Below, one piece after another: positions 18,136 to 38,606 of a stretch of DNA of 64,000 nucleotides. Numbering within the stretch: position 1 is the stretch's first letter; each line of letters opens with the position of its first letter. Both the position numbers and the translations under genes were made by a program. Source of the DNA: an uncultured Pseudomonadota bacterium (GTDB lineage: Bacteria > Myxococcota_A > UBA796 > SXON01). The stretch covers positions 1-64,000 of the forward strand of contig CAIMSU010000223.1 in assembly GCA_903844155.1 (NCBI GenBank), read 5' to 3'. The notes beneath the pieces are model-generated. The model was not told the DNA's origin and did not search any database. It was given only the letters and a program-made list of their open reading frames with translations.

Positions 18136-18144
18136 GGGCTAAGT

Positions 18145-18600
18145 CAAAGGCGCTCGTAAGCGGAGTTCTGTGCCCGGGCTCTGTCGCCATCACCCGGGTG
18201 GAAGCCATTCCTCTACGTCGACCGTTACCGGCCGACTTTAGCAGCCAACCCGGGTCCATACGCGGGCCACGCGGACCCTTCTTGGCCTTGCTCCGGAGGG
18301 GGTTTGCCTGGCCGCCCCTGTCACCAGGGGCGCCGGTGCGCTCTTGCCGCACCCTTTCAATCTCACCGCGACCCGAAGGCCGCCCCGTCGTCGCCGCCGC
18401 TCGACCGGGCAAGCCCGGATGACGTCGGCAATCGGGGAGGCGCCGACGATGCCCTCGCGGGTGTCGGCGTCCTGGCGTTCTGCTCTCTGTTGCGCTTTCC
18501 TCCAGCTCACGCTGACTGGGCGTTACCCAGCCTCCTGCCCTATGGAGCTCCGACTTTCCTCCCGCAGGTCACCCTGCCGGCGGCTTCCTGAGCGCCTTTG
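18145..18600 (-). ncRNA. rnpB: RNase P RNA, class A
   Basis: This is the catalytic RNA that matures the 5' ends of tRNAs. On the minus strand the terminal P1 stem pairs CAAAGGCGCTC at the 5' side (18590-18600) with GAGCGCCTTTG at the 3' side (18145-18155). The hallmark GGAGGAAAGTCGGAGCTCC is near the 5' end (about 18545-18565), and the conserved 3' portion includes GAACTCCGCTTAC. About 456 nt is somewhat longer than the roughly 380 nt of E. coli, with extra GC-rich helices. The 54 bases beyond its 5' end (18601-18654) hold no gene I can see. Confidence 0.93.
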
Positions 18601-22927: not shown

Positions 22928-24667
22928 ATGGTCGTCTACCGCCTCTCCGCCCCAAGCCCCGGCACGCACCGCCTGCATGTCGAGGCGACGTTCCCGCGCG
23001 GCGGCACCTTCGCGTTCCCGAGCTGGGCGCCGGGCAGCTACTTGCAGCGCGAGTTTGCCAGGAACCTTCGTGATCTCTCGGCATCCACGCCCGAGGGCGG
23101 TCCCCTCCCCTACTCACGCGTTTCCCGGAATGAATGGCGTGTGGACGTTGTCGGACCGGTGGTCATGCGGTACGAGGTCTACTGCCGAGAAAAGAGTGTT
23201 CGGACGCCGTATGTCGATGAGTCCCTGTGGTTCTTCCTCCCCTCCAACGTCCTGCTGTACGATCCCGCTGACACCAGCGCCGGCTTCGAGGTCCGATTCG
23301 ACGTTCCCCGCGGCCTGACCGCCGTCTGCGCGCTTGGTGAGCGCCACAGCCATGGCCCCGGCGAATCCGCCTGCTTCCACGCCGAGACCGTCGACAAGCT
23401 GATGGACGCCCCGATCAGCGTCGCCGCGTTTGAGCACACCGAATTCGCCGTCGACGGCATCGCGCACCACCACTGGATCGAGCCCGGCCACAACGGGGAC
23501 ATCGCCAGGATGAACGCGGACCTTGAGCGTATCGTACGCGCCGCCCGGGACACCGTCGGCGTCCTCCCGTACGGCGTCTACCACTTCATCAGCCTGACCA
23601 TGGCGCGGGGACACGGCGGCCTCGAACACAACGACTGCAGCGTGCTGCTCCGGCCCCGCCTCGGGTTCGCGGACCCGAAGGGCTACGAAGAATTCCTCAC
23701 GTTGGCCGCCCATGAACACTTCCACGCCTGGAACGTGAAGCGGATCCGACCCGCCGGCCTGGGCCCGCCGTTTGACTACCGGCGGGAACACTACATCTAC
23801 GATCTCTGGTGGCTGGAGGGCGGCACGGTCTACTACGAGGAGCGCATTGCCTACCGGGCGGGTGTGGTCTCGGCCGACCGGCACCTGGAGCGCATGGCCG
23901 AGCTGGTCCGGGACCTGCGCTCCCAGCCAGGCCGCCTGCACCAGTCGCTTGAAGACTCGAGCTTTGACGCCTGGATAAAGCTGTACCGCCCGGGCGAGGA
24001 CAGCAAGAACTCGACGATCAGCTACTACCTCAAGGGCGCGGTGGTCGTGTGGGCCATGGACCTGGAGCTGCTGGCGTTGACCGGTGGAAAGCGAGGGGTC
24101 GACGACCTCCTTCGGTGGCTGTGGACGGAGTGGGGCGCTCGCGACCTGGGTTTTCCGGACCGGACGGCCCTGCTGGAGGGCGCAGCCCGGATCGCCGGCG
24201 CCGATCCGGACGGGGGCTGGGCGAGGTGGTGGGACCGGCACGTTTGCGGGACGGGCGAGGTGGAGATCGAGGCGGCCTGCGAGAAGGCGGGGTTGCAGCT
24301 TCGATGGAGCGGCGGCGGGACGCCCTGGCTCGGCGTCGAGACACAGAGTGGCGAGCGCATCGTCGTCAGCGCTGTCCGGGAGGATGGCCCGTCGGCGACC
24401 GCGCTCGCTCCGGGAGACGAGATCCTGGCGTTCAACGACGAGCGCGTGCTCGGCTCGGACCTCGGTGACCGGCTGAAAGCGCTCAAAGCGGGCACCGACA
24501 TGCGCATCCTCGTCGCCCGCGACGGTCGCATCCTGGAACGGAAGGTCACGCTCGGTCTCTCGCCGCCCACCGAATTGAAAATCGAGCGGGCTGCGGCTAT
24601 TACCGACGGGATACAGGCGGTTCGGACCGCCTGGCTTTCCCTGCCTCCTTCGGCCCACACCCCCTGA
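22928..24667 (+). CDS. M61-family peptidase with PDZ domain
   Basis: A 579-residue metallopeptidase of the glycyl-aminopeptidase (M61) family. An N-terminal beta domain precedes the catalytic motif HEHFHAWNVKRIRP (zinc ligands H262 and H266, catalytic E263). The third ligand is expected to be E297 in WWLEGGTVYYEE, where the usual EGFT is EGGT. A PDZ-like domain occupies about residues 470-540 (LGVETQSGERIVVSAV). I see no signal peptide, so it is probably cytoplasmic. It lies 10 bases downstream of the ZIP-like gene. Confidence 0.85.
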   Translation: MVVYRLSAPSPGTHRLHVEATFPRGGTFAFPSWAPGSYLQREFARNLRDLSASTPEGGPLPYSRVSRNEWRVDVVGPVVMRYEVYCREKSVRTPYVDESLWFFLPSNVLLYDPADTSAGFEVRFDVPRGLTAVCALGERHSHGPGESACFHAETVDKLMDAPISVAAFEHTEFAVDGIAHHHWIEPGHNGDIARMNADLERIVRAARDTVGVLPYGVYHFISLTMARGHGGLEHNDCSVLLRPRLGFADPKGYEEFLTLAAHEHFHAWNVKRIRPAGLGPPFDYRREHYIYDLWWLEGGTVYYEERIAYRAGVVSADRHLERMAELVRDLRSQPGRLHQSLEDSSFDAWIKLYRPGEDSKNSTISYYLKGAVVVWAMDLELLALTGGKRGVDDLLRWLWTEWGARDLGFPDRTALLEGAARIAGADPDGGWARWWDRHVCGTGEVEIEAACEKAGLQLRWSGGGTPWLGVETQSGERIVVSAVREDGPSATALAPGDEILAFNDERVLGSDLGDRLKALKAGTDMRILVARDGRILERKVTLGLSPPTELKIERAAAITDGIQAVRTAWLSLPPSAHTP

Positions 24668-24692: not shown

Positions 24693-25658
24693 ATGCCGGT
24701 CCCGCCCAAGAGCGCCCCCGCATCCAAGCAGCAGGAATTGCTGCTGGCTGACGACGACGCGGCGGGCGAGAAGACCCGCAAGGTCCACCTCCTGCGCAGC
24801 GGCCCGTCGCGAAAGGTGGTCGTCAACACGCTGCGTGTCGTCGCCGGTCGGGACATGCTCCGCTATGTGACGTTGGAGGAGGATGAATCGGTAGTTATCG
24901 GCCGCGATGAGACGGCGACGCTCTCGCTGACGGACGCCTCAGTCTCGCGCCGGCATGCCAAGGTCCGGTTGATGGACGGCCAGGTGCTCGTGGAGGATCT
25001 GGGGTCGACGAACGGGACCGCGGTCAACGGCCAGATCATCGACCGTGCGGCGCTGAACGTTGGCGACCACCTTGAGATCGGCGCCGTCTCCTTGCGCCTG
25101 GATCTGTTGAGCCTCGAAGAGGTCGGCCACCTCGAAAGCGTGCTTGAACGCCTGCAAGGTGCGAAGCGCGACCCGCTCACTGGCTTGCACACACGCGCGT
25201 ACATGGACGACGAGCTGCCCGACCTGATGCAGCGCTGCGGTCGGTCCAAGGTCGACCTCTCCTGCGTTTTTCTCGACATCGACAACTTCAAGCAGGTGAA
25301 TGACCGGTTTGGCCATCAGGTTGGGGACGACGCCCTCGTCGCCGTCTCCCGGCTGCTGATGGTCAGCCTGCGCGACTCGGACCCGAGCGTCCGGTACGGC
25401 GGCGAGGAGCTACTGATGGTGCTTCAAGACTCCAACGAGAGCGCCAGCTACGAGGTCGCCGAGCGCATCCGCAAGGCGATCCACGGCCACGACTGGGCGC
25501 GCACCTCGGCCGGGCTGCGCGTGACTGCGTCGATGGGCGTCGCCCAGTGGGACGGGGTCGAGTCGCAGAAGGACTGGATCGGCCGGGCAGACAAGGCGTT
25601 GTACGCCGCCAAGGCGAGCGGCAGGAACCGGGTCATGCGGGCGAGCGAGGCGAAGTAG
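24693..25658 (+). CDS. FHA-GGDEF protein (diguanylate cyclase)
   Basis: A 321-residue signalling protein. An N-terminal FHA domain (about residues 68-120; GRDETATLSLTD, SVSRRHAKV, STNGTAVNG) should bind phosphothreonine peptides. A C-terminal GGDEF domain (about 160-315) has FLDIDNFKQVNDRFGHQVGD and the active-site variant YGGEEL, consistent with c-di-GMP synthesis. No RxxD inhibitory site is obvious. This would couple Ser/Thr phosphorylation to c-di-GMP, fitting the nearby phospho-signalling operon. Confidence 0.9.
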   Translation: MPVPPKSAPASKQQELLLADDDAAGEKTRKVHLLRSGPSRKVVVNTLRVVAGRDMLRYVTLEEDESVVIGRDETATLSLTDASVSRRHAKVRLMDGQVLVEDLGSTNGTAVNGQIIDRAALNVGDHLEIGAVSLRLDLLSLEEVGHLESVLERLQGAKRDPLTGLHTRAYMDDELPDLMQRCGRSKVDLSCVFLDIDNFKQVNDRFGHQVGDDALVAVSRLLMVSLRDSDPSVRYGGEELLMVLQDSNESASYEVAERIRKAIHGHDWARTSAGLRVTASMGVAQWDGVESQKDWIGRADKALYAAKASGRNRVMRASEAK

Positions 25659-25661
25659 GGG

Positions 25662-27668
25662 CTACTCGACGACGAGGAAGGCAGACCCGGCCCAGCTCGC
25701 GGCGTCGTCGGAATACGGTGCGCCGATGATGATGTCGTCGAGGCCGTCGCCGTTGGTGTCGCCGGCACCAGACACCGTCGAACCGGCCTCTCCCGACGCC
25801 GCGTAGTCCGAATCTGCCCGGGTGAGGTCGTAGGACGCGGGGGTCGCCCGGCCGCGAATCATGTAGGCGCCACACGTGCTGCCGATGAGGAGGTCGGCGA
25901 AGCCGTCGGCGTCGACGTCGCCCGCGCCCGCCACGCCGTCCCCCGCGTAGCAGTCGGCTGTCACCCCCGTAAAGACAGCGTCGGCGGATGCCAGATCCCC
26001 GCTTGCGAGCGAAGCCGTCCCGAGCACCAAAAACACTGCACCCGTTGACGACCCGGCAGCGGAGTCCACCGGTCGCCCGAAGAGGAGATCCGCGTAGCCA
26101 TCGCCGTTGACGTCGCCCACCCCCGCGTCCGTCCCCGGCAGTTGCTCCTCCGCGGCGCCGCTGTACGCCGCATCTGCGTCCCCCAGCGACCGGGAGATCG
26201 GCGCCGCCTCGCCACGAAGCAGGTAGACAACGCCGAAGCCGGGGTAGCGATCACTCCCGACCAGGACGTCGTCGAAACCATCGCCGTCGACGTCCCCGGC
26301 CGCCGCCACGGTCCGGCCCGCCATCTCGCCGCGGGCCTCGCCTGTGAATTCCACCGAGAGGGACGCGATGCTCCCCGACTCGGGCGTCCCGCCCCCGAGC
26401 ACGAGGAACGCAGCCCCGGCGTCCTCGCCTGCGTCGTCGTTCGCTCCCGCCCCCAGGACCAGATCGGCGAACCCGTCGCCGTCCACATCCCCCGCGCCCG
26501 CCGCGTCACTGAGCAGCCCGGTGTAGACGGCATCGGCCGCTCCGAGCCCCCGCGAGGTCGGGGCCGAGCCCCCAAGGACGAGCCACGCCGCTGCGTAGGC
26601 GCCCGCGTCGGTCGTGTCTGCACCCGCGAGGACGATGTCGTCGTACCCGTCACCGTCAACGTCGCCCGCCTTGGCAACCGCGCACCCGATCCCGTCTGCG
26701 GCCCCCTCGCCCGTCAAGATGACGTCGGCCAGTCCCAGGTCGCCGGACGTGTGCGCCCGCCCGCCGAGGATCACGTAAGCGACGCCTGCCTCGCTCCCAC
26801 CCCGGTCACTCCCGTACGCCCCCACGATCACGTCCGCGTACCCATCCCCGTTGACGTCCCCGAGGCCGGCGACGCCGCTCCCGGCGTGATCCGCGGCCGC
26901 CTCGCCGACGAATTCGACGCCGACTGCGCCAAGATCGAGCACCGTGTCCTTCGCCCCGTCGCAGTCCTCGTCCACCTCGTCGCCGACGATCTCGGCTTCT
27001 CCGGGGTTCGCGTTCGGGTCGGCGTCGTCGCAGTCCCCGGACACGGGCGCCCCGGTCCCGGTGACGCAGTCGAGGCTGGAGCCCGGCCAGGTCCTGTCGG
27101 TCCCGTAGTTGTCGTTGTCGTCGTCGACCCAGCATTGGTCGACGCCATCGCAGTCCTGATCGATGCCGTCGCCGATGATCTCGTTCGCGTGTGGGTGGAT
27201 GGCCGGGTCGGAGTCATCGCAATCGTTGCCGCCCGCGGACACCGCCGTGTATTCGTCGTCGTCGGCGTCCCCAAGGTTCTGCACCGAAATCGTGACGGTC
27301 GCCGTGCGGGTGTTTCCGGCCGAGTCCGTCGCCTGCGCCGAGACGGTGTGGTCGCCATTCCCGAGCCCACCCGTGCTTCGAACGGTCTCCACGCGCGAGG
27401 ACGCCGAGGTGAGGATGACCTGCCCGTCCACCAGCAGGTCGAGGGTCGCGACGGCGCGGTCGTCGGACGCCTCGGCGTCGATGCGAAAGTAGTCTTCGAC
27501 GACGTCGCCGTCATTCGGTTCGAACAGCGCGACGCGCGGCGGCGATGAGTCCACCGGCGCGGACATCTCCCCCGAGTCCGCCGCGGGGGGCCCCGAATGG
27601 TGCCTTGTCGCCTCCGGGGAGGGCGCGCCGCAGCCAGCCATCCACACGAACGGAAACGCCCAGATCAT
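25662..27668 (-). CDS. FG-GAP / integrin-alpha-like lipoprotein with MopE-type repeats
   Basis: A 668-residue surface lipoprotein with lipobox VWMAGC. After a linker there is an Ig-like domain (residues about 45-135), two Asp/Cys repeats (GDGIDQDCDG, GDEVDEDCDG), then about seven FG-GAP repeats with DVNGDGYADV-type Ca2+-binding loops that should form a beta-propeller. I start at ATG 27668 because the signal peptide follows directly and a TATTCT hexamer lies six bases upstream, though the frame is open further 5'. Confidence 0.85.
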   Translation of the reverse strand: MIWAFPFVWMAGCGAPSPEATRHHSGPPAADSGEMSAPVDSSPPRVALFEPNDGDVVEDYFRIDAEASDDRAVATLDLLVDGQVILTSASSRVETVRSTGGLGNGDHTVSAQATDSAGNTRTATVTISVQNLGDADDDEYTAVSAGGNDCDDSDPAIHPHANEIIGDGIDQDCDGVDQCWVDDDNDNYGTDRTWPGSSLDCVTGTGAPVSGDCDDADPNANPGEAEIVGDEVDEDCDGAKDTVLDLGAVGVEFVGEAAADHAGSGVAGLGDVNGDGYADVIVGAYGSDRGGSEAGVAYVILGGRAHTSGDLGLADVILTGEGAADGIGCAVAKAGDVDGDGYDDIVLAGADTTDAGAYAAAWLVLGGSAPTSRGLGAADAVYTGLLSDAAGAGDVDGDGFADLVLGAGANDDAGEDAGAAFLVLGGGTPESGSIASLSVEFTGEARGEMAGRTVAAAGDVDGDGFDDVLVGSDRYPGFGVVYLLRGEAAPISRSLGDADAAYSGAAEEQLPGTDAGVGDVNGDGYADLLFGRPVDSAAGSSTGAVFLVLGTASLASGDLASADAVFTGVTADCYAGDGVAGAGDVDADGFADLLIGSTCGAYMIRGRATPASYDLTRADSDYAASGEAGSTVSGAGDTNGDGLDDIIIGAPYSDDAASWAGSAFLVVE

Positions 27669-27674
27669 GTCGTC

Positions 27675-27680
27675 AGAATA
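27675..27680 (-). promoter_or_regulatory. -10-like hexamer, leaderless start of FG-GAP gene
   Basis: TATTCT on the minus strand ends six bases before the ATG at 27668. It supports this start over the open frame upstream. Confidence 0.4.
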
Positions 27681-27747
27681 CGCCACTTGCTGCGAGATCC
27701 CATGCTCCGCGCCGAATTCTTGATAGCTCCCCACCCCGGAGCGCCCG

Positions 27748-28506
27748 ATGGAATGGATCAAAAAGCTCAAGACCTCCGTGACCACCGCCGTCCAGGCCGG
27801 CGCGGAGACCGTCGCCACCGCGGGCGATGATGAGCTTGGACGCGAGGATCTGCTGCGCGATGCCTGCGACGGCATCCTCAAGCTGAAGCGCTTTGGCGCG
27901 AGGGGCAAGGAGGTTTTCCCGCCGGGGGTGGTCATCCACGTCACGGCGCGCGGGGGCAGCCTGGAGAGCTTGCGCCGCTTTGTCGTCGACCCCCAGTTTG
28001 AGCGGGATCTCGACGCCATGCTGCGAAACCGCCTCGTCGAACCTGGCCTGCTTCCCGCGCGCAAGTACGACGTGCAAGCGGGCGACCTCAACCGGGTGAG
28101 CGTCGAGGACGACACGATGGGCGTGCAGGCGCAGTTCGTGATCGAGGGAGGCGACAAGGACGGCGATGTGCACCTCGTGGCGCTCTCCGCGCGTGAATGG
28201 CGACTCGGACGCGGGCGCTGGCACCAGGAGTCCGGCGACGATCAGCGCGTTGCCAACGACGTGATCCTCACCGAGACGCTCCCCTGGATCAGCCGGGCTG
28301 CGGCGGTGATCGAGCGAAAGGGCGCGTTCCTGGAGGTCGTGAGTCGTCAACAGAAGGACTTTCTGGTAGTCGTGAAGGCAGACGGTGCGAAGATTCGTCC
28401 GCACCTCACGGCCTCGGGCCGCGCGCCCGTCGCTGTGGGGGACCGCCTCGAATTTCACGATGGAGCGTCCGGTTTGCTCACCCTGCGCGTCGACAAGCTG
28501 CCATGA
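27748..28506 (+). CDS. FhaA-like protein (DUF3662-type)
   Basis: A 252-residue protein that opens the envelope-signalling operon. The N-terminal half (residues about 30-130) resembles the DUF3662 region of actinobacterial FhaA: helices followed by PPGVVIHV and LPARKYDVQAGDLNRVSVED. The C-terminal part looks like a degenerate FHA-type beta domain without a clear GR/SxxH/NG set. The assignment rests partly on its position in front of FhaB-, PstP-, RodA/PBP- and kinase-like genes. It has GGAG six bases before the ATG and shares ATGA with the next gene. Confidence 0.6.
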   Translation: MEWIKKLKTSVTTAVQAGAETVATAGDDELGREDLLRDACDGILKLKRFGARGKEVFPPGVVIHVTARGGSLESLRRFVVDPQFERDLDAMLRNRLVEPGLLPARKYDVQAGDLNRVSVEDDTMGVQAQFVIEGGDKDGDVHLVALSAREWRLGRGRWHQESGDDQRVANDVILTETLPWISRAAAVIERKGAFLEVVSRQQKDFLVVVKADGAKIRPHLTASGRAPVAVGDRLEFHDGASGLLTLRVDKLP

Positions 28507-29315
28507 TCGTCAAGCTGGACTCCTCCCGGTACGCCGTGGACTTCTCGCAGGTCAAGCGCCCCGGTCAGGGCGTGATGAGCATGTTTTCGAAGCGCACGGT
28601 GGAAGTGGACGCCTACGCCGTTGGGCAAGCGCTCCGGGCCGTGCTGCGACACTGCTCGACGCTGGACGTAGAAGGCAGGTTGCAGGTGTGGAATGACTTC
28701 CGGCTGTTCCTCGACCGCACGGACTACGAGGAGCTGCGCAAGAAGGCGCCTACGTTGCAGCACCAGCTCGGCCCGGCGTTGGAGGACGAGGTTCTCAAGC
28801 TCAAAGCCAGCTACCTCGGCGCGCCGGTGCTGCGCCTCCACGTGGATGAAGGCGGCGAGGTGGAGCCCGGCCATGGCGTGCTCAAGGTCGACTGGAACGC
28901 GGATGAGAGCGGTGTCCCCTCGGCTGCGGGCGAGGTGACGGTGAGGCTCGACAAGCCGGGGAGCCCGGGCAGGCCCGCGACGGGCGCGAAGACGGAGCGT
29001 GCCGGAAGCGCGCTGCTCAAGCACGCCCAGGGCACGTTCGCGCTGGTCTCGGGGCTGCACTACGTGGTCGGTCGCAGCTTCCCGAACGCGGGGCCCGAGC
29101 ACATCGCGATCCCGGGCGCGAGCGGCCGGATCAACAAGCGGCAGGTGACGATCGACGTGGAGGGGACGATGGCGCTGATCAGCCGCGAACCTGGGGAATC
29201 CAACCCGGTGAGCGTGAACGGGCAGGCGCTGGCCGTCGGCGGGTCGACGAGGGTGCCGTTGCCCGCTGAATTGCTGCTGTCCAACGAGCTCAAGCTGGAG
29301 ATCCTGCCATGCTGA
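28503..29315 (+). CDS. FHA-like protein (FhaB position)
   Basis: A 270-residue protein. The C-terminal 100 residues resemble an FHA domain (YVVGRSFPNAG, INKRQVTIDV, VSVNGQALAVGG), but the conserved SxxH is replaced by NKRQ, so phosphothreonine binding may be altered. The N-terminal half shares the helical DUF3662-like style of the preceding protein. I start at the ATG that overlaps the upstream stop. A seven-base overlap with the phosphatase gene indicates coupled expression. Confidence 0.6.
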   Translation: MIVKLDSSRYAVDFSQVKRPGQGVMSMFSKRTVEVDAYAVGQALRAVLRHCSTLDVEGRLQVWNDFRLFLDRTDYEELRKKAPTLQHQLGPALEDEVLKLKASYLGAPVLRLHVDEGGEVEPGHGVLKVDWNADESGVPSAAGEVTVRLDKPGSPGRPATGAKTERAGSALLKHAQGTFALVSGLHYVVGRSFPNAGPEHIAIPGASGRINKRQVTIDVEGTMALISREPGESNPVSVNGQALAVGGSTRVPLPAELLLSNELKLEILPC

Positions 29316-30622
29316 GCACGCCGAACTGGCGACCCTGGCCGCGCATGGACGCAGCCGCGCGCACGCACGCCGGAAAGGTCCGCGCCAACAACGAGGACGC
29401 GCTGCTTTGCAAGCCGGAAGCTGGCTTGTTTGCGGTCGTCGACGGGATGGGGGGCGAGGAGTCGGGTGAGGTCGCCGCAGCCATCGCGATCGCCACCCTG
29501 GCGCAGGTCGCGGACCAGACCGGGCCGAGCGAAACGTTGCTGGCCCGGGCGTTTTCGGAGGCCCGGGAGCGCGTGCTCGCGGAGGGGGTGAAGAACCCGC
29601 TGCACGGCAACATGGGGGCGGTCGCGACCGCCGTGCGTTTCGAGGACAACGGCCGGTTCATCGGGGTCGCGCACGTCGGCGACACACGGCTCTACCGCGT
29701 CGACAAGCGCGGCGTTCGCGTGCTGACGACGGACCACGTCCAGGCGATGCCGGACCAGCCAAACCGGCAGGCCGTAGCGCGCGACCTGGGCCGCAAGCAG
29801 ATGCAGGACGGCTGGGTGGAGTCGAGCCGCTACGCCGTCGGCATGGGCGATCTGCTCGTGCTGTGCAGCGATGGGCTCTACGGGCCCGTCGAGCCAAAAG
29901 AGCTGGAGAGCACGCTGATCGCCATCCAGCAGCGGAAGATGGACGCGGACAGCGCCGCGCAGAAGCTCGTTGCGCTGGCGCTCGCGCGGGGCGGGCCGGA
30001 CAACGTCACGGTCGTGGTCATCCGGGTCGGGCGATTCCGGCGGGGCCGACGCGTCCCGCGGTTGACGCTCGCCGTGGCGATCCCCGTGCTGCTGCTGCTC
30101 ATCGGACTCGCGTCGGTGACGGGCGTGTGGGGCGGGCTCGACGGCCTCGGCAGGCACCCGAACGTGCTCCCGCTCGCCGTCGACCGCGACGTGGTCCTCA
30201 AGGTCACAGACGCGACCGCGCTCGGCGCAGGTGCCAGGACGGAGGTCAAGCCCGGCGTGATGTTCGACGTCCGCGGCGCCGATCTTTCCGGACCCGCCTG
30301 GACGTTGCACCTCGACAAGGGCGCCCACGCGCGCATCGACCGCGCCGTCCTCCGCATCGACGGTGACCTGCACGTGGAGCTGGACGACGGCTCCGACGTC
30401 ACCTTCGTCGACAGCCGGATCCAGGCGGGGTCGCTCACGATCACGGCCACCGGCCCCCGACCGCCGCAGGTCTCGTTCCTCGGCATCATCGGCACCGTCG
30501 GCGCGCTGTCGATCGACGGCCAGATCACGCCGACCGTCAACGCCGTCTACGGGACGGGCTTTGACCCGCTCGCCGCCTACCCAGCGCCTCCGAGCGGCCC
30601 ACCACCGGGTCCGAACCCCTGA
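29309..30622 (+). CDS. PP2C-type Ser/Thr phosphatase, membrane-anchored (PstP-like)
   Basis: A 437-residue protein. The catalytic domain (residues 1-245) carries the metal-binding motifs VRANNEDA, VVDGMGGE, GVAHVGDTRLYRV, LCSDGLYG and GGPDNVTVVVI. One transmembrane helix (about 255-275) is followed by an extracytoplasmic domain of about 160 residues. This is the architecture of actinobacterial PstP, which reverses envelope Ser/Thr kinases. It overlaps the upstream FHA-like gene and shares a TGATG junction with the synthase gene. Confidence 0.9.
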   Translation: MLSTPNWRPWPRMDAAARTHAGKVRANNEDALLCKPEAGLFAVVDGMGGEESGEVAAAIAIATLAQVADQTGPSETLLARAFSEARERVLAEGVKNPLHGNMGAVATAVRFEDNGRFIGVAHVGDTRLYRVDKRGVRVLTTDHVQAMPDQPNRQAVARDLGRKQMQDGWVESSRYAVGMGDLLVLCSDGLYGPVEPKELESTLIAIQQRKMDADSAAQKLVALALARGGPDNVTVVVIRVGRFRRGRRVPRLTLAVAIPVLLLLIGLASVTGVWGGLDGLGRHPNVLPLAVDRDVVLKVTDATALGAGARTEVKPGVMFDVRGADLSGPAWTLHLDKGAHARIDRAVLRIDGDLHVELDDGSDVTFVDSRIQAGSLTITATGPRPPQVSFLGIIGTVGALSIDGQITPTVNAVYGTGFDPLAAYPAPPSGPPPGPNP

Positions 30623-33600
30623 TGCCGATCCTGATCGAGGTCGGCCTGCTGGCGCTGATCGCGGTCCTTGGCGCGATCGGGGCCAACTTCGCCGTACACG
30701 GGGTCCTTGGGGCGGCAGCGCTTCGGGGGCTGACGGGTCCGGGGCTGGACTCGGCTGGCGTCCTCGCGGCCGGTCAGCGCGCGCAGATCGAGTGGGTCGC
30801 CGCCGTCGCCCTGCTCGTCGTGGCGCGGGTCATCGCGAGTCGGCGCAGGGGCACCCACATCCCCACGCCGATCCTGCTCCCCGCGGTGGCGACCGCGATG
30901 GCGCTCGGCTTGTGCATCCAGCTCGGCTACGGCAATCCGTTCTCGAAGGACTGGCCCGGGCCGGACTTCGCGAACGGGATCCTGCTCGCGTCGATCGTCG
31001 GGTCGGCGATCCTGCTCTCGCCGCTGGACCCGGGCGAGTGGATCCCACGCCTGCGCTGGCCACTCGCGGCGTTCGTCGTCGGAATCTTTGGGGTGATGTC
31101 GGTGTTCGGGCAGGCGCCTGGGCACTCGGACCAGAAGGTGAACCTGAACGTTGGCGTGACGGTACAGCCCATCGAGCTGGCAAAGCTCGGCGCGGTGCTC
31201 TTCATCGCGGTGGAGCTCGGGAGACGGGCGTCCAAGTTGCGTTATCAGCGCGACCGCGTCAGCATCCTCAAGTTCCCGCGCCCGCGCCTGCTGCTCTCCG
31301 CGGTCGTGGCCCTGCTTGCGACGCTCGGCGGGATGCTGGCGGTCAAGGATCTGGGCCCCACGCTGATCCTCGGCGGCGTGTTCCTCGCGATGTACTTCGT
31401 GGTCACGCGCTCGGTGGGGTGGGTGGGCCTGGCGGTCACGGTCGGCGCGGGCGTGCTCGGCGCGCTCTGGGCGGACCCCACGCTCGCGCACTCGCAAACC
31501 GTCGAATTGCGCATCCGCATGTGGGCCGATCCGTGGTTCAACGGCCTCGCGCACGGTGATCAGCTCTCCATGGCAAGATGGGCGTTGGCGGCTGGTGGTT
31601 TCTCGGGCGTGGGCCTCGGCGACGGGTTCCCCGGAGCGCTGGCAGCCGGGCACACGGACCTCGTCTACGCGCACCTTGTAGAGGAGCTCGGGCAGGCCGG
31701 AGGGACGTTGTACCTTGGCATCCTCGTCGGCATCGTGCTCTCCACGCTGCACGTCGGCATGCGCTCGCGCACCCCCGAGCGGGCGATGATGGCGGCGGCC
31801 ATTGGCTTTCTCATCACTTTTCAGACCGCGACCATCCTTGGTGGCACGCTCGGGGCCATCCCGCTCACGGGCGTGGTCGTCCCGTTCCTCTCGCACGGCA
31901 AGACGGGGATGATCGCGTTCGTCGCGGCCGTTTGCCTCGTCGGCCGACTCGCGCAGGACGGTGCCATCCGAGCGCCCACGGATGAGATGCGGGAGCTGGC
32001 GCGGGGGATTCGGGAGGGCGGCTACGGCATCGTCGCGCTGGCTGGCGTGGCGATCGTGCTGACGGCGCTGGAGGCCGTGGCCTGGCGCGATGAGACCACG
32101 CTGCGACCCGCGGTGACCACCCTGGAGGAGGGACAGCCGAAGCTGGAGTTTGATCGCCGCGTTCGCTTCGTCGCCGACAACATCCGGCGCGGCTCGATCC
32201 TCGACCGAAACGGGCAACCGCTCGCCGCCTCGCCAGAGCCCGGCACCCGCATCGACCCCCTCGGCAACGCGCTCGGAACGCTGCTCGGGCCCGCGGACGA
32301 CGACGTCCTGCGGGCGTCGTGGAGCCTGGAGCGCGTAGAGGACGAAAGGCTCAGGGGCTACCCGAATGCCAAGGACGGACCGGCGATCTGGCTCGGAGAC
32401 CTCGGCGGCACCGACCACGTGGTCCTGGCCGTCAAGAGCGCCGCACACGAGGCGCTGGACGAGGAGGCGCGGGCGACGGCGGAGTGGGTCCGACGGGGCG
32501 GAACCCCACGCGCGCCCGGGCAGCACGACGTCCGCCGTGTCGCCCTGGCCACCCCCGATCTCTCCGGCCTGCTGCCGATCGTACGGCTCCCGCTCGCCAC
32601 GCGCGGACAGGCGATCCAGAAGCTCTCCGACGACGTCGCCAGCCGGTCGCTCCAGACCACGATCGACGCGCGCCTGCAAGCCGCCGTCGCCATCGCGGTC
32701 CGCAAGGCCGCTGCGAAAAGCCAGGTCGGCGTCGCTGCGGCCGTCGTGATCGACCCCGCCAACGGCCAGATCCTCGCCCGCGCGCAGTGGCCCGACTACG
32801 ACCCGTCCGCACCCGAGACCGTCGCCGGCCCGAACGACCACACGGCGCGAACCACGGACTGGCACGCGCTCCGTCGCTCGAATGATCCCCGGTTCATGGG
32901 CGTCTACGGGCCATGGGCCGACAAGACCGGCAGCGGCAACTACGGATTCTTGCAGGCGGGCTCCGTCTTCAAGCTCGTCACCTCCCTCGCCGCGGTTCGC
33001 ACCGGGCTGGTACAGCCTTCGGCACCGAGCGAGCACTCCAGAAAGCATCCCGACGACGCCACCTGCCCGACCAGCGTGCTCCCACGCTACACCTGTGGCC
33101 CGGAATTCACACTTCCCGGCTGGACAAAGCCGATCCACAACCACAAGGACGGCGGTGGCACCGGCTCGGTCGACCTGATCGCGGCGCTGGCCCAGTCCTC
33201 CAACGTCTACTTCGGGCAGCTTGGCCTCACCCTCGGCCCCCAGCCGTACCGGGATCTGCTCGCTGCAGGCGTCAACTTCGGCCTGCCGGGCCTCGCCAGG
33301 GAGCCCGACGGGCCCTACACCGGCATCGGGGCGACCGGCAGCCGTCGCCTTGCGCTCACCGCGTTCGGCCAGGGCGCCGCAGCCTGGACGGTCACGGAAG
33401 CCGCCCAGTTCACCGCGGCCCTCGCCAACGGCGGCGACTACCGCACGTGCGAGCTGCGCAGCGATCGGCCCTGCGCCGACGTCAAGCTCGTCGACGACCC
33501 CTCCTCCCTCGTCCCCATCCTCTCGGGCATGCGCGCGGTGATGGACAGCGGCACCGGCGCGCACCTTCGTCACCTCAAAGGCGTCCGGATCTACGGCAAG

Positions 33601-33861
33601 ACCGGAACCGCCGATGCCCCCGGAAACGTCGACGAGGCGCCCTACGGCGTGAAAGCGAAGTCCGACGGCCAGCCGCACTCCTGGTTCGTCGCCATCGCCG
33701 AGTCGGCCGACGCGACGGACTGCAGCGCCACGACAACCGGGCGGTATGCGATCGCGACCGTCGCACCCCATGCCGGGTTCGGCGCGAGCGTCGCCGGACC
33801 GCTCGCCATCGACATCGCGGAGGCGCTGCAGCAGCTCCAGTACCTCCCGTCGGGGGGCTGA
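30622..33861 (+). CDS. RodA/FtsW (SEDS) glycosyltransferase fused to a class B PBP transpeptidase
   Basis: A 1079-residue fusion of the two activities that build peptidoglycan. The N-terminal 475 residues are a SEDS polymerase with many transmembrane helices, the catalytic-type HTD (H344-D346) in AAGHTDLVYAHLVEELG, and the late motif VVPFLSHGKTGM. After another membrane segment (about 475-492) comes a class B penicillin-binding protein with a dimerisation-type region and a transpeptidase domain: SVFK (S781, K784), SSN (859-861) and KTGT (993-996). No stop or frameshift separates the parts. In most bacteria these are two genes. Confidence 0.93.
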   Translation: MPILIEVGLLALIAVLGAIGANFAVHGVLGAAALRGLTGPGLDSAGVLAAGQRAQIEWVAAVALLVVARVIASRRRGTHIPTPILLPAVATAMALGLCIQLGYGNPFSKDWPGPDFANGILLASIVGSAILLSPLDPGEWIPRLRWPLAAFVVGIFGVMSVFGQAPGHSDQKVNLNVGVTVQPIELAKLGAVLFIAVELGRRASKLRYQRDRVSILKFPRPRLLLSAVVALLATLGGMLAVKDLGPTLILGGVFLAMYFVVTRSVGWVGLAVTVGAGVLGALWADPTLAHSQTVELRIRMWADPWFNGLAHGDQLSMARWALAAGGFSGVGLGDGFPGALAAGHTDLVYAHLVEELGQAGGTLYLGILVGIVLSTLHVGMRSRTPERAMMAAAIGFLITFQTATILGGTLGAIPLTGVVVPFLSHGKTGMIAFVAAVCLVGRLAQDGAIRAPTDEMRELARGIREGGYGIVALAGVAIVLTALEAVAWRDETTLRPAVTTLEEGQPKLEFDRRVRFVADNIRRGSILDRNGQPLAASPEPGTRIDPLGNALGTLLGPADDDVLRASWSLERVEDERLRGYPNAKDGPAIWLGDLGGTDHVVLAVKSAAHEALDEEARATAEWVRRGGTPRAPGQHDVRRVALATPDLSGLLPIVRLPLATRGQAIQKLSDDVASRSLQTTIDARLQAAVAIAVRKAAAKSQVGVAAAVVIDPANGQILARAQWPDYDPSAPETVAGPNDHTARTTDWHALRRSNDPRFMGVYGPWADKTGSGNYGFLQAGSVFKLVTSLAAVRTGLVQPSAPSEHSRKHPDDATCPTSVLPRYTCGPEFTLPGWTKPIHNHKDGGGTGSVDLIAALAQSSNVYFGQLGLTLGPQPYRDLLAAGVNFGLPGLAREPDGPYTGIGATGSRRLALTAFGQGAAAWTVTEAAQFTAALANGGDYRTCELRSDRPCADVKLVDDPSSLVPILSGMRAVMDSGTGAHLRHLKGVRIYGKTGTADAPGNVDEAPYGVKAKSDGQPHSWFVAIAESADATDCSATTTGRYAIATVAPHAGFGASVAGPLAIDIAEALQQLQYLPSGG

Positions 33862-33886
33862 TGGCGCCCCCGGAACGGCGAGGGCG

Positions 33887-35890
33887 ATGATCGACATCCC
33901 CAACCACACGCCGGTCACCCGTCTGGGCGGCACCCCCGGCCAGCGGGAGGTGTGGCGCACGGAGTTCAACGGCCGCCCGTGCGTGACCCGCGTGCTCGCT
34001 CGAGACAGGCTGCACGTGAACTTTGCGGCGAGCATCCGGCGGATTGTCCTGGAGGGGCATGGCTCCGTCGCAAACCTGCCGGAGAACATCCAGCTCACGA
34101 TCGAGGGGTACCGCGTCGCCGCGAACATCCCGGCCGGCCGCGGCGCGGGGCCAGACCCGCGCTGGCCTCGCGCGCTGGATGCGGGCCTTACGCCTGAGGG
34201 CTTTGTCTACGTGACGACCGAGTGGATCGACGGCGCGCCGCTCGCCCGGATCCAGCCGGTTGCCCCCGACCTTCGCGTGCCGATCGCGCGGGGTGTCGGC
34301 CGCATCCTCGCCATCCTGCACGCGTCCAACGTGGCGTACGGCGATCTCAAGGCCGAGAACCTCGTGATTGGCCCCGCTGGCGAGGTCTCGCTCATCGATC
34401 TGGACACGATGCGCGAGGTGCCCGGGCCGACCCTCGCGGTGCCGACCCGCGATCTGACCCTCTCGTGGGCCGCCCCTGAGCAGCGCCACCAACAGCAGAC
34501 CTACCTTGCCAGCGATCTCTGGGCGTTTGGACGGCTGATCCGCGAGCTCTTCGACGAGGACGTGCCCGAGGACTGGCGCGCGCTCATCGCCGGCTGCTCG
34601 CATCCGAGCCCCCTCGATCGCCCGCGCACCGCCTCGCTCGTCGCCCGGCTGCACGACCCCGACGCCCCGCTCGTCGACTGGCTGGACGAGCCGCTTCGCG
34701 CTCCGGAGGCGGGCACCGGGGAGCGCGCCGGGGACGACGGAAAAACCCAACGCGTCGCCGAGTCGACCCTGGATCCCGGCCGCACAGAGCGCGTCGCAGA
34801 GACCAGCGGACCGGCCCTCGACCGCCCCTCCCCGTTCCAACCCGCACCGGATCTTCCGTCAGCACGGCCGAGCTACGCGCTTCGAAGCTGCATTGTGATC
34901 CCGCTCGTCGGCGGCCTCCTGGGCATCGGCACGTGCGCGGGCCTGGGTGCCTGGTGGGACCGCACCCAGATCGCGCTCGCCAACTCGGCGGCCGATGACG
35001 CATTGGCCGCCTTGAAGTCCTACAAGACGCGTCCCGAGGTCAACAGGGACACCTCCCAGCGCACGGCGATCCGGGCGCAGGCCGACGCCGCATGGAACAC
35101 CCGAAAAACCCCCCACGCCATCGCCGTCCGCGCGCTCGCGCTCGTGTGGGAGCAGGGCTGGCAGGACGGGGGACGGAAGTGGGACGTCCAGAAGTATGAC
35201 GACGGAATCGCCGCTTTGAACGGCGCTGCCGACGAGCCGGCCGCGGCGATGGCCCGGGCGACGGTCGAGGGCGGGGCGTGCCGACTCAATCGCGCCGACG
35301 CGCGCTCAGCCGGGCACTGCGATCGCGCGCTGGACGCGATCGGGTTGCTGCGCAAGGAGCTGCCCGACAAGGACGACAGCAACTGGCTGCGCGTCGAGGC
35401 GGCGTGGACTGAGGAGCTGGTCCGCGGCGAATTGGCCGAACAGGCGGTGACCGCGAAGACCGGCGAGGCGCCCCAGCGGCTGGCGGCCGTCTTGGCGACC
35501 TGCGACGATGCCCGTCCCTACTTGTCCTTCGGGCCTGTGAACGCCATCGAGCTCGAACAGGACTGCCTCGCCTACGCCGGCCTGGCTGGGGACTGGGCGC
35601 ACTACTTCGCGTCGGCCGACTACCTTTTTGACAACGACACCGCGAAGAACACGATGCCGCTCGTGTACCGGTCCGCAGGCGCCCAATGCGCAGACATCCC
35701 CGTCAAGCAGGGGCGCTCGGACTGGAGCGTCAAGGGCGACCCGTGGTGCGTTGCCGTCGGCGACGCCGCGCGTGGGTGCGTGGCCGCAGCGCAGAGTGAC
35801 ATCGCGAAAAACGCGTTGACCGAGCCCGATCAGCACTGGGACAGCCTCTACGCCGCGCTCGCGAGCCGAACCGAACGGTGCCGGAGATGA
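33887..35890 (+). CDS. Membrane-anchored Ser/Thr-kinase-like protein
   Basis: A 667-residue protein. The first 250 residues are kinase-like: catalytic loop YGDLKAEN (D153, K155, N158) in place of HRDLKxxN, DLD (171-173) in place of DFG, WAAPEQ for the APE motif and SDLWAFG. The glycine loop is poor and the beta-3 lysine appears to be Arg (CVTRVL). It may be an atypical or dead kinase. One transmembrane helix (about 331-353) leads to an extracytoplasmic, Cys-containing helical domain. It occupies the position of pknA/pknB in the actinobacterial cluster and overlaps the histidine kinase gene by ATGA. Confidence 0.8.
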   Translation: MIDIPNHTPVTRLGGTPGQREVWRTEFNGRPCVTRVLARDRLHVNFAASIRRIVLEGHGSVANLPENIQLTIEGYRVAANIPAGRGAGPDPRWPRALDAGLTPEGFVYVTTEWIDGAPLARIQPVAPDLRVPIARGVGRILAILHASNVAYGDLKAENLVIGPAGEVSLIDLDTMREVPGPTLAVPTRDLTLSWAAPEQRHQQQTYLASDLWAFGRLIRELFDEDVPEDWRALIAGCSHPSPLDRPRTASLVARLHDPDAPLVDWLDEPLRAPEAGTGERAGDDGKTQRVAESTLDPGRTERVAETSGPALDRPSPFQPAPDLPSARPSYALRSCIVIPLVGGLLGIGTCAGLGAWWDRTQIALANSAADDALAALKSYKTRPEVNRDTSQRTAIRAQADAAWNTRKTPHAIAVRALALVWEQGWQDGGRKWDVQKYDDGIAALNGAADEPAAAMARATVEGGACRLNRADARSAGHCDRALDAIGLLRKELPDKDDSNWLRVEAAWTEELVRGELAEQAVTAKTGEAPQRLAAVLATCDDARPYLSFGPVNAIELEQDCLAYAGLAGDWAHYFASADYLFDNDTAKNTMPLVYRSAGAQCADIPVKQGRSDWSVKGDPWCVAVGDAARGCVAAAQSDIAKNALTEPDQHWDSLYAALASRTERCRR

Positions 35891-37878
35891 GGCCGGTGCT
35901 CTACGCGACCATCGCCTTGCTCCTGCTGATCCTGGCGGGCGTGCTGGTCAAACAGTCGGCAGACTGGCGGGCCGACGCCGAAGATCGCGAGCGGGACCGC
36001 GCGCAGGAGCGGCTGGACCAGCTCATGCAGGCGTGGGAGAGCTACATCGACGATTTTGTGACGCTGCAGCTCCGCGCGCTGGCACCACCGGAGCCCGGCC
36101 CCGCCGTGCTGGAAGCAAGCTTGCGCGAGGAGAAGCCGTGGGTCGACTCGGTGTATTTGTGGGAGCCGGGCGACGTGCTGTTCCCGGGCGAACCATTCCC
36201 CGAGAACCTCGCGGCGATGCAGACCACGCCGTGCATCGCCCGCGCGATGGCGGCCACCGGCGGCGAGGACGAAACGCTCACGGCAAAGCGCTACCTGAGC
36301 TGCCAGAGTCAGGGCGACCGCCAGACGCTGCTTTACGCCACCTCCCAGGCCGCCGAGCTGCTCCTCGACGCCGACCACCCCGAGGTCGTCGACGCGGAGA
36401 TCCGCGGAATCGGCGCCTTGCCAGCCATGAACATTGGCCTCGCCGCCGACTACCGCGTGAACGCGAGCCGCCTCGTCGAGCTGCGCCTGCAGCACACGCG
36501 CGCGGAGCGAGCGCTCGGGCGTGACGACATCGCCGAACGCTGGCTCGCCGGCATGCGCGAGGAGATCCTCGGCCTTGACGGCCCGACGTTGCAGAGCTTG
36601 CTGGAGATCTACACCCAGAACGTGAAGCCCCAGCTCGCGTTGACCGCCAACGCCCGCACGGCGCCGACCAGCACCGGCCTGGACGACGACGACCCCCTCG
36701 AAGCACGCGCGATGCGCCGGCTCGCGATCTGGAAGATGGTGCGGGAGCGTGACTGGGCGAACGCCGACATTCCGTCGCTTCACGACGGACCGAAGCTCCT
36801 GATGGACTCCTCGACCGACCCGCCCGGCCTGCTCTACGTCGCCAAGCTCGGCGTCGGGGAGCTGTACGGCGGTATCGAGCTCGACCAGGCCGAGCTGCTC
36901 CGCACGCTGTTCCGCGGGGCCGGCAAGCTCGCGCCCCACCTCACCGTGCGAGACTCGGATGGCAACGTGCTCGCCGGCTCAGCCGAGTCGATCTCCGTTC
37001 ACCGCAGCGTCGGCCACCTCATGCCGTCGCTTGAGGTGGGGATCACCGAGGGCGCGATCCCCAGCGTCGCGGCAGACACAACGTTGTACGCCCAGTTTGG
37101 CGTCATCGCCATCGGGATGATGGCAGGCGTGTTCTCCCTCGTCACGCTGATCCGAACGGACCGCGAGCAGGTCTCCATCCTCGCCCGACAGCGCGAATTC
37201 ATGACCCGGGTGACCCACGAATTGAAGACCCCGCTCGCCGGTATCCGCGTGATCGCCGAGAACCTTGAGATGGGCGCCTACCGCGACACAGAGCAGGTCG
37301 AAGCCTACGCGCGCATCATCATCGCGGAGGCTGAGCGGCTCGGGCTGCGGGTCGACGAGGTCATCCGCGCTGCCAACGGGCCGGCGCGCGAGGATGCTCG
37401 GGCGTTTGACCTCACGAAGATGCTGGAGGAGCTCGTCGTCACCTGGCGCGAGCGCTACGCAGCGAGCGGAGCTCCGGGCACCGAGCCGGCGACGATCGAG
37501 CTGGACGCCCCGCAGGCCGTCCCGATGCACGGCAAAGTCGGGATCCTGCGCGACGCGATCACCAACCTGCTGGACAACGCGCTCAAGTACCGGCGCGAGG
37601 ATCGCGTGCTGCACGTGATCGTTCGCGCCCGGGTGCAGGGGCGGTTGGTGAGCGTGGAGGTCGAGGACAACGGGATGGGCGTGCCGGCGAACCTCCGGAC
37701 GGCCATCTTCGAGAAGTTTCGCCGGGTGGAAGGCCCGGGTCGCGGGCTCTCGGGCGGCCACGGGCTGGGGCTATCTTTTGTCTCGGACGCAGCCCGCCTC
37801 CACGGCGGGACTATAGAGTGCAGGGAGAGTCGAACCGGTGGCTCGACCTTCGTGATGCGCATAAAGCGCGATTCTTGA
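35887..37878 (+). CDS. Sensor histidine kinase
   Basis: A 663-residue two-component sensor. Transmembrane helix 1 is at residues 3-20 and helix 2 at about 400-420, enclosing an extracytoplasmic sensor domain of about 380 residues of unknown fold. The HisKA box is FMTRVTHELKTPLAG with phosphoacceptor H444. HATPase_c motifs are LRDAITNLLDNALKY, VEVEDNGMGVP and GGHGLGLSFV. I start at the ATG overlapping the kinase-like gene's stop; a GTG nine bases upstream is possible. The regulator gene follows after 35 bases. Confidence 0.92.
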   Translation: MRPVLYATIALLLLILAGVLVKQSADWRADAEDRERDRAQERLDQLMQAWESYIDDFVTLQLRALAPPEPGPAVLEASLREEKPWVDSVYLWEPGDVLFPGEPFPENLAAMQTTPCIARAMAATGGEDETLTAKRYLSCQSQGDRQTLLYATSQAAELLLDADHPEVVDAEIRGIGALPAMNIGLAADYRVNASRLVELRLQHTRAERALGRDDIAERWLAGMREEILGLDGPTLQSLLEIYTQNVKPQLALTANARTAPTSTGLDDDDPLEARAMRRLAIWKMVRERDWANADIPSLHDGPKLLMDSSTDPPGLLYVAKLGVGELYGGIELDQAELLRTLFRGAGKLAPHLTVRDSDGNVLAGSAESISVHRSVGHLMPSLEVGITEGAIPSVAADTTLYAQFGVIAIGMMAGVFSLVTLIRTDREQVSILARQREFMTRVTHELKTPLAGIRVIAENLEMGAYRDTEQVEAYARIIIAEAERLGLRVDEVIRAANGPAREDARAFDLTKMLEELVVTWRERYAASGAPGTEPATIELDAPQAVPMHGKVGILRDAITNLLDNALKYRREDRVLHVIVRARVQGRLVSVEVEDNGMGVPANLRTAIFEKFRRVEGPGRGLSGGHGLGLSFVSDAARLHGGTIECRESRTGGSTFVMRIKRDS

Positions 37879-37913
37879 CTTTCTTTCTGCGAAATCAGCG
37901 GGAGTAGATCCTC

Positions 37914-38606
37914 ATGGAATTCAACGGTGCCAGTGTCCTTCTTGTCGAAGACGATCCCACCATCGCCATGGGCGTCGTCGGGGGGCTGGAGCACGAGCAC
38001 TTCGCCGTCACGCACGTCACAAGCGGGGAAGCGGCGTTGAGCTCGATCGACGACGATCCGCCGGACTGCTTGATCCTTGACGTCATGCTCCCCGGCATGG
38101 ACGGCCTCGACGTGCTCCGCCGCGTCAAGAAGGAACATCCCGAGATGCCCATCCTGCTCGTGACGGCCAAGGCCGCCGAGCTCGACCGCGTGCTTGGCCT
38201 TGAACTCGGCGCCGACGACTACGTCACCAAGCCGTTCTCGCTGCGCGAGCTCATCGCCCGCGTGAAGGCGCGCCTGCGGACGCGTCCGGCGGCACCGCGC
38301 GCGCCTGAGCGCTACCGGTTCGGCCAGAACGAGGTGGACCTGCGCCGCCGGATCCTGTTCCGCGCCGGCGTGGAGGAGCGCATGACCACCCACGAGGCTG
38401 GCGTACTCTCCTACTTGATCGCCCACAAGGGGCGAGACGTGAGCCGCGAGGAGCTCCTGCAGCACGTCTGGGGCTATTCCCCGCAGATGGCAACGCGGAC
38501 CGTCGACAACCAGATCCTGAAGCTCCGCAAGAAGGTCGAGGAACAACCTGCCGATCCTCGCCACATCCTCACCGTGCACGGGACGGGCTACCGCTTCGAG
38601 GAGTGA
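37914..38606 (+). CDS. OmpR-family response regulator
   Basis: A 230-residue regulator with a receiver domain (LLVEDDP acidic pair, phosphoacceptor D56 in ILDVMLPGMDG, T/K switch residues VTAK and KPF) and a C-terminal winged helix (about 130-230; ELLQHVWGY, RTVDNQILKLRKK, GTGYRFEE). It is the cognate regulator for the preceding sensor kinase, probably controlling envelope genes. It has a GGGAG ribosome-binding site nine bases upstream. Its 3' end overlaps the convergent surface-protein gene by 19 bases. Confidence 0.94.
   Translation: MEFNGASVLLVEDDPTIAMGVVGGLEHEHFAVTHVTSGEAALSSIDDDPPDCLILDVMLPGMDGLDVLRRVKKEHPEMPILLVTAKAAELDRVLGLELGADDYVTKPFSLRELIARVKARLRTRPAAPRAPERYRFGQNEVDLRRRILFRAGVEERMTTHEAGVLSYLIAHKGRDVSREELLQHVWGYSPQMATRTVDNQILKLRKKVEEQPADPRHILTVHGTGYRFEE

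Follow-up and report, generated by a model that had tools for sequence, protein, structure and literature searches.

The window described here, a 64,000-nucleotide stretch of contig CAIMSU010000223.1 from an uncultured bacterium (GTDB lineage Myxococcota_A; UBA796; SXON01), carries at 27748-38606 of its plus strand seven contiguous genes, overlapping or separated by short gaps. One of them encodes a peptidoglycan synthase in which a RodA/FtsW-type (SEDS) glycosyltransferase and a class B penicillin-binding protein (PBP) transpeptidase are joined in a single polypeptide. It is accompanied by two putative FHA adaptors, a PP2C phosphatase, a kinase-fold membrane protein and a two-component pair (Table 1). 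Conserved synteny supports the view that the seven genes are a functional unit, and we put at roughly 0.55 the probability that this cassette forms one phospho-regulated peptidoglycan synthase, with a (pseudo)kinase hub, docking through FHA domains and reset by PP2C. A first-pass annotation, made by a model from the letters alone, had already proposed seven same-strand genes here, most of them overlapping, and the gene calls confirm seven there, with two of the starts adjusted. Its naming of the PP2C phosphatase with one transmembrane (TM) helix, the histidine kinase, the OmpR-type regulator and the RodA/FtsW-PBP protein is borne out by the Pfam matches, the last with both domains in a single open reading frame (ORF).

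Table 1. Features of the operon and of its upstream neighbour, in window positions
Feature	Position	Strand	Basis and remarks
up321, FHA-GGDEF diguanylate cyclase	24693..25658	+	Pfam GGDEF 4e-41, FHA 6.6e-18
fhaA1, FHA-like adaptor	27748..28506	+	252 amino acids, no TM helix
fhaA2, FhaA_N domain, TER linker and FHA domain	28503..29315	+	270 amino acids, no TM helix
PP2C Ser/Thr phosphatase, one TM helix, C-terminal extracytoplasmic part, PstP-like layout	29345..30622	+	Pfam PP2C 8.9e-12
RodA/FtsW (SEDS) glycosyltransferase fused to class B PBP transpeptidase	30622..33861	+	1079 amino acids; FTSW_RODA_SPOVE 3.4e-38, Transpeptidase 7.9e-28
Kinase-fold membrane protein, one TM helix, helical extracytoplasmic domain	33887..35890	+	Pfam Pkinase matches C-lobe only (107-227)
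Tandem TQRV (residue 287) and TERV (residue 300), proposed phospho-Thr FHA docking sites	34745..34798	+	Linker between kinase fold and TM helix
Membrane histidine kinase, large periplasmic sensor region, two TM helices	35878..37878	+	HisKA 8.7e-11, HATPase_c 7.7e-21
OmpR/PhoB-type response regulator	37914..38606	+	Response_reg and Trans_reg_C

A fused synthase in a conserved gene order

Domains were called by Pfam profile searches, with additional NCBIfam scoring for the two halves of the synthase and for the response regulator, and distant domains were compared by hhalign of orthologue alignments and of trimmed domains. The fusion is a single ORF in the orthologues as well, the full-length ones being 40-78% identical, and its catalytic motifs (HTD in the SEDS half; SxxK, SxN and KTG in the PBP half) are invariant in all full-length members. 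Among the NCBIfam models, FtsW gives the best score for the SEDS half and PBP2/MrdA for the PBP half, none of them coming near its cutoff, and the synthase is thus a divergent one. A SEDS-PBP fusion in itself is not new, since natural examples have been mentioned and synthetic ones are functional (PMC10449877). Like these, the window's protein holds both activities in one ORF; unlike them, it is encoded within an FHA/PP2C/pseudokinase operon and is its genome's only RodA-like synthase. A Clostridia match (L004) that resembled a fusion in the tblastn output turned out to be two adjacent ORFs. A further SEDS-PBP fusion paralogue, about 1100 amino acids long and very divergent, is present in G017 (L117:382-3693) and in G020 (L116:5960-9313); the one in G017 is preceded by a weak fhaA1-like gene, and its SEDS motif HTD is apparently changed to AND.

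That no other RodA-like synthase accompanies the fusion is concluded from a census of SEDS proteins (PF01098) among the relatives. The fusion is borne by 24/379 genomes of the phylum, in which labels such as f2 and f30 denote families. The fusion-bearing genomes carry FtsW and the fusion, with no MreC detectable by Pfam (MreD and RodZ were not searched); the co-occurrence with MreC expected of a Rod complex member is therefore missing. Most fusion-free genomes of the order carry FtsW alone. A stand-alone RodA is present in G023 and G032 only, the same two being the only relatives with MreC above cutoff. Neither MreC nor another RodA was found in the window's own genome, a metagenome-assembled one that is 95.6% complete and has two clear MreB genes. 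One of these (L065, G000:C295:41294-42274) adjoins a bpMoxR AAA/ivWA pair, not mreCD. Across the order at large, FtsW is the one SEDS protein of most genomes and MreC is undetected in them, which leaves them without a canonical RodA or a complete Rod complex.

The gene-neighbourhood survey that the first-pass annotation had proposed shows the core order recurring across genomes of the order and, partially, in two distant genomes. In 13 genomes of the window's family, counting the window, all seven genes are arranged alike and on one strand, the others being cut by contig ends. Outside the family, G022 (f2), G038 (f6) and G061 (f3) have the whole of a five-gene core, fhaA1-fhaA2-PP2C-SEDSPBP-kinase, and G060 nearly all of it, its contig ending upstream of fhaA2; the core is partial in G041 (f5), G284 (f24) and G367 (f30), owing to contig ends or to the lack of a recognised kinase gene. 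Since this order is kept between proteins as little as 33-48% identical, it is under selection. The FhaA_N domain follows the fusion closely: it scores above cutoff in 18 of the 379 genomes, each time beside the fusion, with the reservation that the G006 contig stops within the PP2C gene, leaving the fusion itself unseen. The sole further match outside cassettes, a borderline one in G091, has no cassette around it and was discarded.

The spacing of the genes suggests that they are co-transcribed. No terminator-like site lies between the seven, promoter and terminator scans being uninformative at 70% GC. The ORF of fhaA2 opens at 28197, and the MIxx start shared by its orthologues supports the ATG at 28503, which overlaps fhaA1 by 4 bases; the PP2C gene probably starts at 29345, with 29309 as the alternative. 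Its Asp motif positions are mostly invariant in the orthologues.

The kinase-fold protein and the FHA adaptors

The first-pass annotation had seen a kinase-like membrane protein, and both the fold and the TM helix are there, with an N-lobe that is degenerate and no PASTA match by Pfam in any member. No Gly-rich loop remains, and Arg35 takes the place of the beta3 Lys in 17/17 proteins, within an invariant T34-R35; in G060 and G061, the two most divergent orthologues, this beta3 position is aligned with Leu. The ATP-binding Lys of VAIK, whose loss marks pseudokinases, is thus missing, while none of the catalytic or metal-binding Asp residues has been lost: D153-L-K155 and N158 of the catalytic loop are kept, D171-L-D173 stands in place of DFG (DLE in G060 and G061), and both D153 and D171 are invariant. 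Because of the missing loop and the replaced Lys, the protein is probably a pseudokinase or an atypical kinase, and we prefer to see it as a hub of little activity, if any. A second kinase-fold gene in G038 (L063:13973-15391), directly upstream of fhaA1, has its beta3 Lys and HRD intact and reads AFG at the DFG position.

Between the kinase fold and the membrane lies a linker that is unalignable apart from one short motif. T-x-R-[VL] occurs in 17/17 linkers, usually twice, giving 36 copies against a mean of 1.9 and a maximum of 7 in 2000 shuffles; the remaining 9927 residues hold only 2. Its spacing is that of the pT-x-x-V read by the FHA domain of DgcB (PMC6733907). We discarded the possibility that TxRV is widespread in these genomes: a codon-biased DNA pattern for it gave few matches outside the cassette, close to the reversed-pattern control.

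Related motifs appear in the candidate reader. T164 of fhaA2, invariant among orthologues, sits in a TER context in the linker ahead of the FHA domain, and this site reads TxRV in G038, G060 and G061; T.R[VL] motifs are common in fhaA2 linkers. The linker of the G284 orthologue (L114:12751-13839) carries three repeats of the (G)xATVR[TP]S type. Of the two FHA/DUF3662-like proteins announced by the first-pass annotation, fhaA2 is confirmed with FhaA_N and FHA domains, and fhaA1 is FHA-like only. The FhaA_N domain of the window's fhaA2 (E 5e-5, 24.1 bits) falls just under the Pfam cutoff and is found in 16/16 orthologues, at best with E 1.7e-10; hhalign gives its FHA domain an E of 2.8e-6 and a probability of 88%. 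Together with the PP2C and Pkinase matches of the respective proteins, this answers the profile check that the annotation had named. The window's fhaA1 has no significant Pfam match. It keeps G154-R155, N170-D171 and S182-R183 invariant in 18 orthologues, a G-R...N-D...S-R pattern typical of FHA loops, and its C-terminal half aligns from end to end with the up321 FHA domain, at an E of only 0.006 and a probability of 6%, and for this reason it is named FHA-like. Compared whole by hhalign, fhaA1 matched neither fhaA2 nor the FHA-GGDEF protein, the trimmed domains giving support for fhaA2 only; PDB profile searches with the two adaptor alignments returned nothing meaningful.

Additions in the window's family

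Two further signalling elements accompany the core in the window's family. The histidine kinase has HELKTPL in 14/14 orthologues, and the response regulator, 77-96% identical across the family, is the most conserved protein of the cassette; its best NCBIfam scores are with YycF (WalR), MtrA and PhoB, all below cutoff. No match to either was found downstream of the kinase-fold gene in G022, G038, G060 and G061, so the pair is a family-level addition. The His-Asp pair that the annotation joined to the operon belongs to the gene run of this family and not to the five-gene core.

The other element is up321. Its FHA domain is canonical, GG[DE]E is intact in 11/12 orthologues, and T28 of its N-terminal tail, TRKV, is near-invariant. 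In most family members the gene lies directly upstream of fhaA1, often less than 100 bases away or overlapping; in the window 2 kb separate it from the operon, and an opposite-strand gene lies in between (25662-27740, minus), which encodes a surface-type protein with FG-GAP, MopE-motif and Ig domains. The closest PDB match of up321 is the FHA-GGDEF structure 6hbz (E 4.4e-41), which we take to be DgcB. In Bdellovibrio DgcB the FHA domain recognises phospho-Thr14 of the protein's own tail, for which the Val at +3 is a key feature (PMC6733907). The two share the FHA-GGDEF layout, the N-terminal Thr tail and the +3 Val; unlike DgcB, up321 is encoded next to a wall-synthase operon, and the +3 residue of its tail is not conserved across all genera. 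Upstream of up321, and co-directional with it in several family members, is a gene for an M61 glycyl aminopeptidase with a PDZ domain (22928-24667). Farther away, at 18142-18599 on the minus strand, the window carries a class A RNase P RNA.

A proposed phospho-switch, its rivals and its relatives

In the mechanism that we propose from the motifs, the SEDS half would polymerise lipid II and the fused PBP half would cross-link it, at a fixed 1:1 stoichiometry. A Ser/Thr kinase acting in trans would phosphorylate the T-x-R-V motifs in the juxtamembrane linker of the hub, and probably also the TER site of fhaA2. Then fhaA2, and perhaps fhaA1 and the FHA-GGDEF protein, would bind the linker phosphothreonines and tune the synthase at the membrane, by activation or by restraint. 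The membrane PP2C would strip the phosphates off again and so return the switch to its starting state. In the window's family a signal of this kind could also be translated into cyclic di-GMP (c-di-GMP) by the adjacent FHA-diguanylate cyclase, and the WalKR/MtrAB/PhoBR-like pair encoded in the same run of genes could match expression to the state of the envelope.

Several points weigh against this scheme. It postulates a kinase acting in trans, and no recognisable kinase gene stands beside the G284 fusion. The FHA identity of fhaA1 is weakly supported, and most fhaA2 members carry Asn where a canonical FHA domain has Ser, so that their affinity for phosphothreonine is not assured. AlphaFold2 models (two sequences each) were unusable, with a pLDDT (predicted local distance difference test) score of 41.6 for fhaA1 and 35.5 for the kinase-fold protein. 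The latter also retains the D, K and N of the catalytic loop and the first D of DFG, and its Arg35 with D-L-D resembles the DYD-type proteins of actinobacteria and firmicutes, for which ATP binding has been predicted, along with a proposed pairing of the second Asp and the beta3 Arg (PMC12599244). These features, together with an invariant APE and the parallel to the proposed DYD salt bridge, are what would be expected of an active atypical Ser/Thr kinase, a functional equivalent of PknA/PknB whose substrates would be its own TERV linker and the synthase or the adaptors. We consider this unlikely in view of the lost Gly-rich loop, a Pkinase match confined to the C-lobe, and the Leu and DLE of the two divergent orthologues. 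The phosphorylating kinase is probably encoded elsewhere, because that of the operon is degenerate and more like the MviN pseudokinase than PknA/PknB.

It is somewhat unlikely, though less so, that the synthase is an accessory enzyme (for predation, sporulation or envelope repair) under the same module, rather than the one for elongation. Many genomes of the order live with FtsW only, without RodA or fusion, and a second SEDS protein is therefore dispensable there; against this, the PBP half matches PBP2/MrdA best and the core resembles the actinobacterial growth locus. Chance, or a general shuffling of cell-wall and signalling genes into operons with shared expression and no phospho-switch, seems very improbable. 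The weak identification of fhaA1 and the sequence-based nature of the case for a switch speak for it, whereas the order is conserved over many genera despite the divergence of the proteins, FhaA_N is exclusively associated with the fusion, and two different proteins share TxR motifs.

We thus return to the phospho-regulated synthase, which may by analogy work like the actinobacterial locus fhaA-fhaB-pstP-rodA-pbpA-pknA-pknB (PMC6554272, PMC11898655). The likeness in gene order proposed by the first-pass annotation stands, with its conserved synteny: FHA adaptors, a PP2C gene with one TM helix upstream of the synthase, RodA, a class B PBP and a kinase-fold membrane protein follow one another in both, and fhaA2 combines FhaA_N (DUF3662) and FHA like FhaA, the window's copy just under cutoff. 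Unlike the actinobacterial locus, the cassette has RodA and the PBP in one polypeptide, no separate fhaB (its second FHA protein being the weakly FHA-like fhaA1), and a single degenerate kinase in place of active kinases with intact VAIK, HRD and DFG, of which PknB bears PASTA domains. It adds the His-Asp pair and FHA-GGDEF in one family, and its genome, of an apparently Gram-negative phylum, still has two MreB genes. It is set down as a variant, not a member, of that locus because it lacks both the separate rodA and pbpA and the active PASTA kinase. Parts of the Rod complex are missing here, as in mycobacteria and corynebacteria (PMC8262863). The phospho-complex of the MviN pseudokinase with FhaA in mycobacteria (PMC12599244, PMC11898655) likewise involves a wall-synthesis membrane protein that contains a pseudokinase, the Thr sites of its tail being the proposed ligands of FHA; the window's protein differs in that it is not fused to MurJ/MviN, keeps its catalytic loop, bears tandem TxRV motifs and is encoded within the synthase operon. 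With the DYD-type (pseudo)kinases it shares, by motif, the membrane location, the beta3 Lys to Arg change and D-x-D for DFG (PMC12599244), the Leu/DLE variant setting it apart. No description of the cassette was found in the literature searched, which did not extend to subscription journals and preprints.

Whether FHA and (pseudo)kinase control inhibits or activates late wall synthesis in actinobacteria is debated (PMC11898655). The compact system described here combines a one-polypeptide synthase, a probable pseudokinase whose short docking motifs are repeated, and a phosphatase of its own, in cells with no canonical RodA and no detectable MreC. It offers a simple setting in which to ask whether phospho-Thr docking gates a SEDS-PBP enzyme directly. 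The system further suggests that, outside actinobacteria, FhaA_N and RodA-PBP are carried along together as one unit. In a tentative reading, to which we give less than even odds, part of the phylum has a fused RodA-PBP synthase in place of the Rod complex, the FHA-binding switch of this synthase is the membrane pseudokinase with its tandem TxRV motifs, and c-di-GMP and a His-Asp pathway converge on the module. If true, the actinobacterial phospho-control of wall growth would have a second, Gram-negative version.

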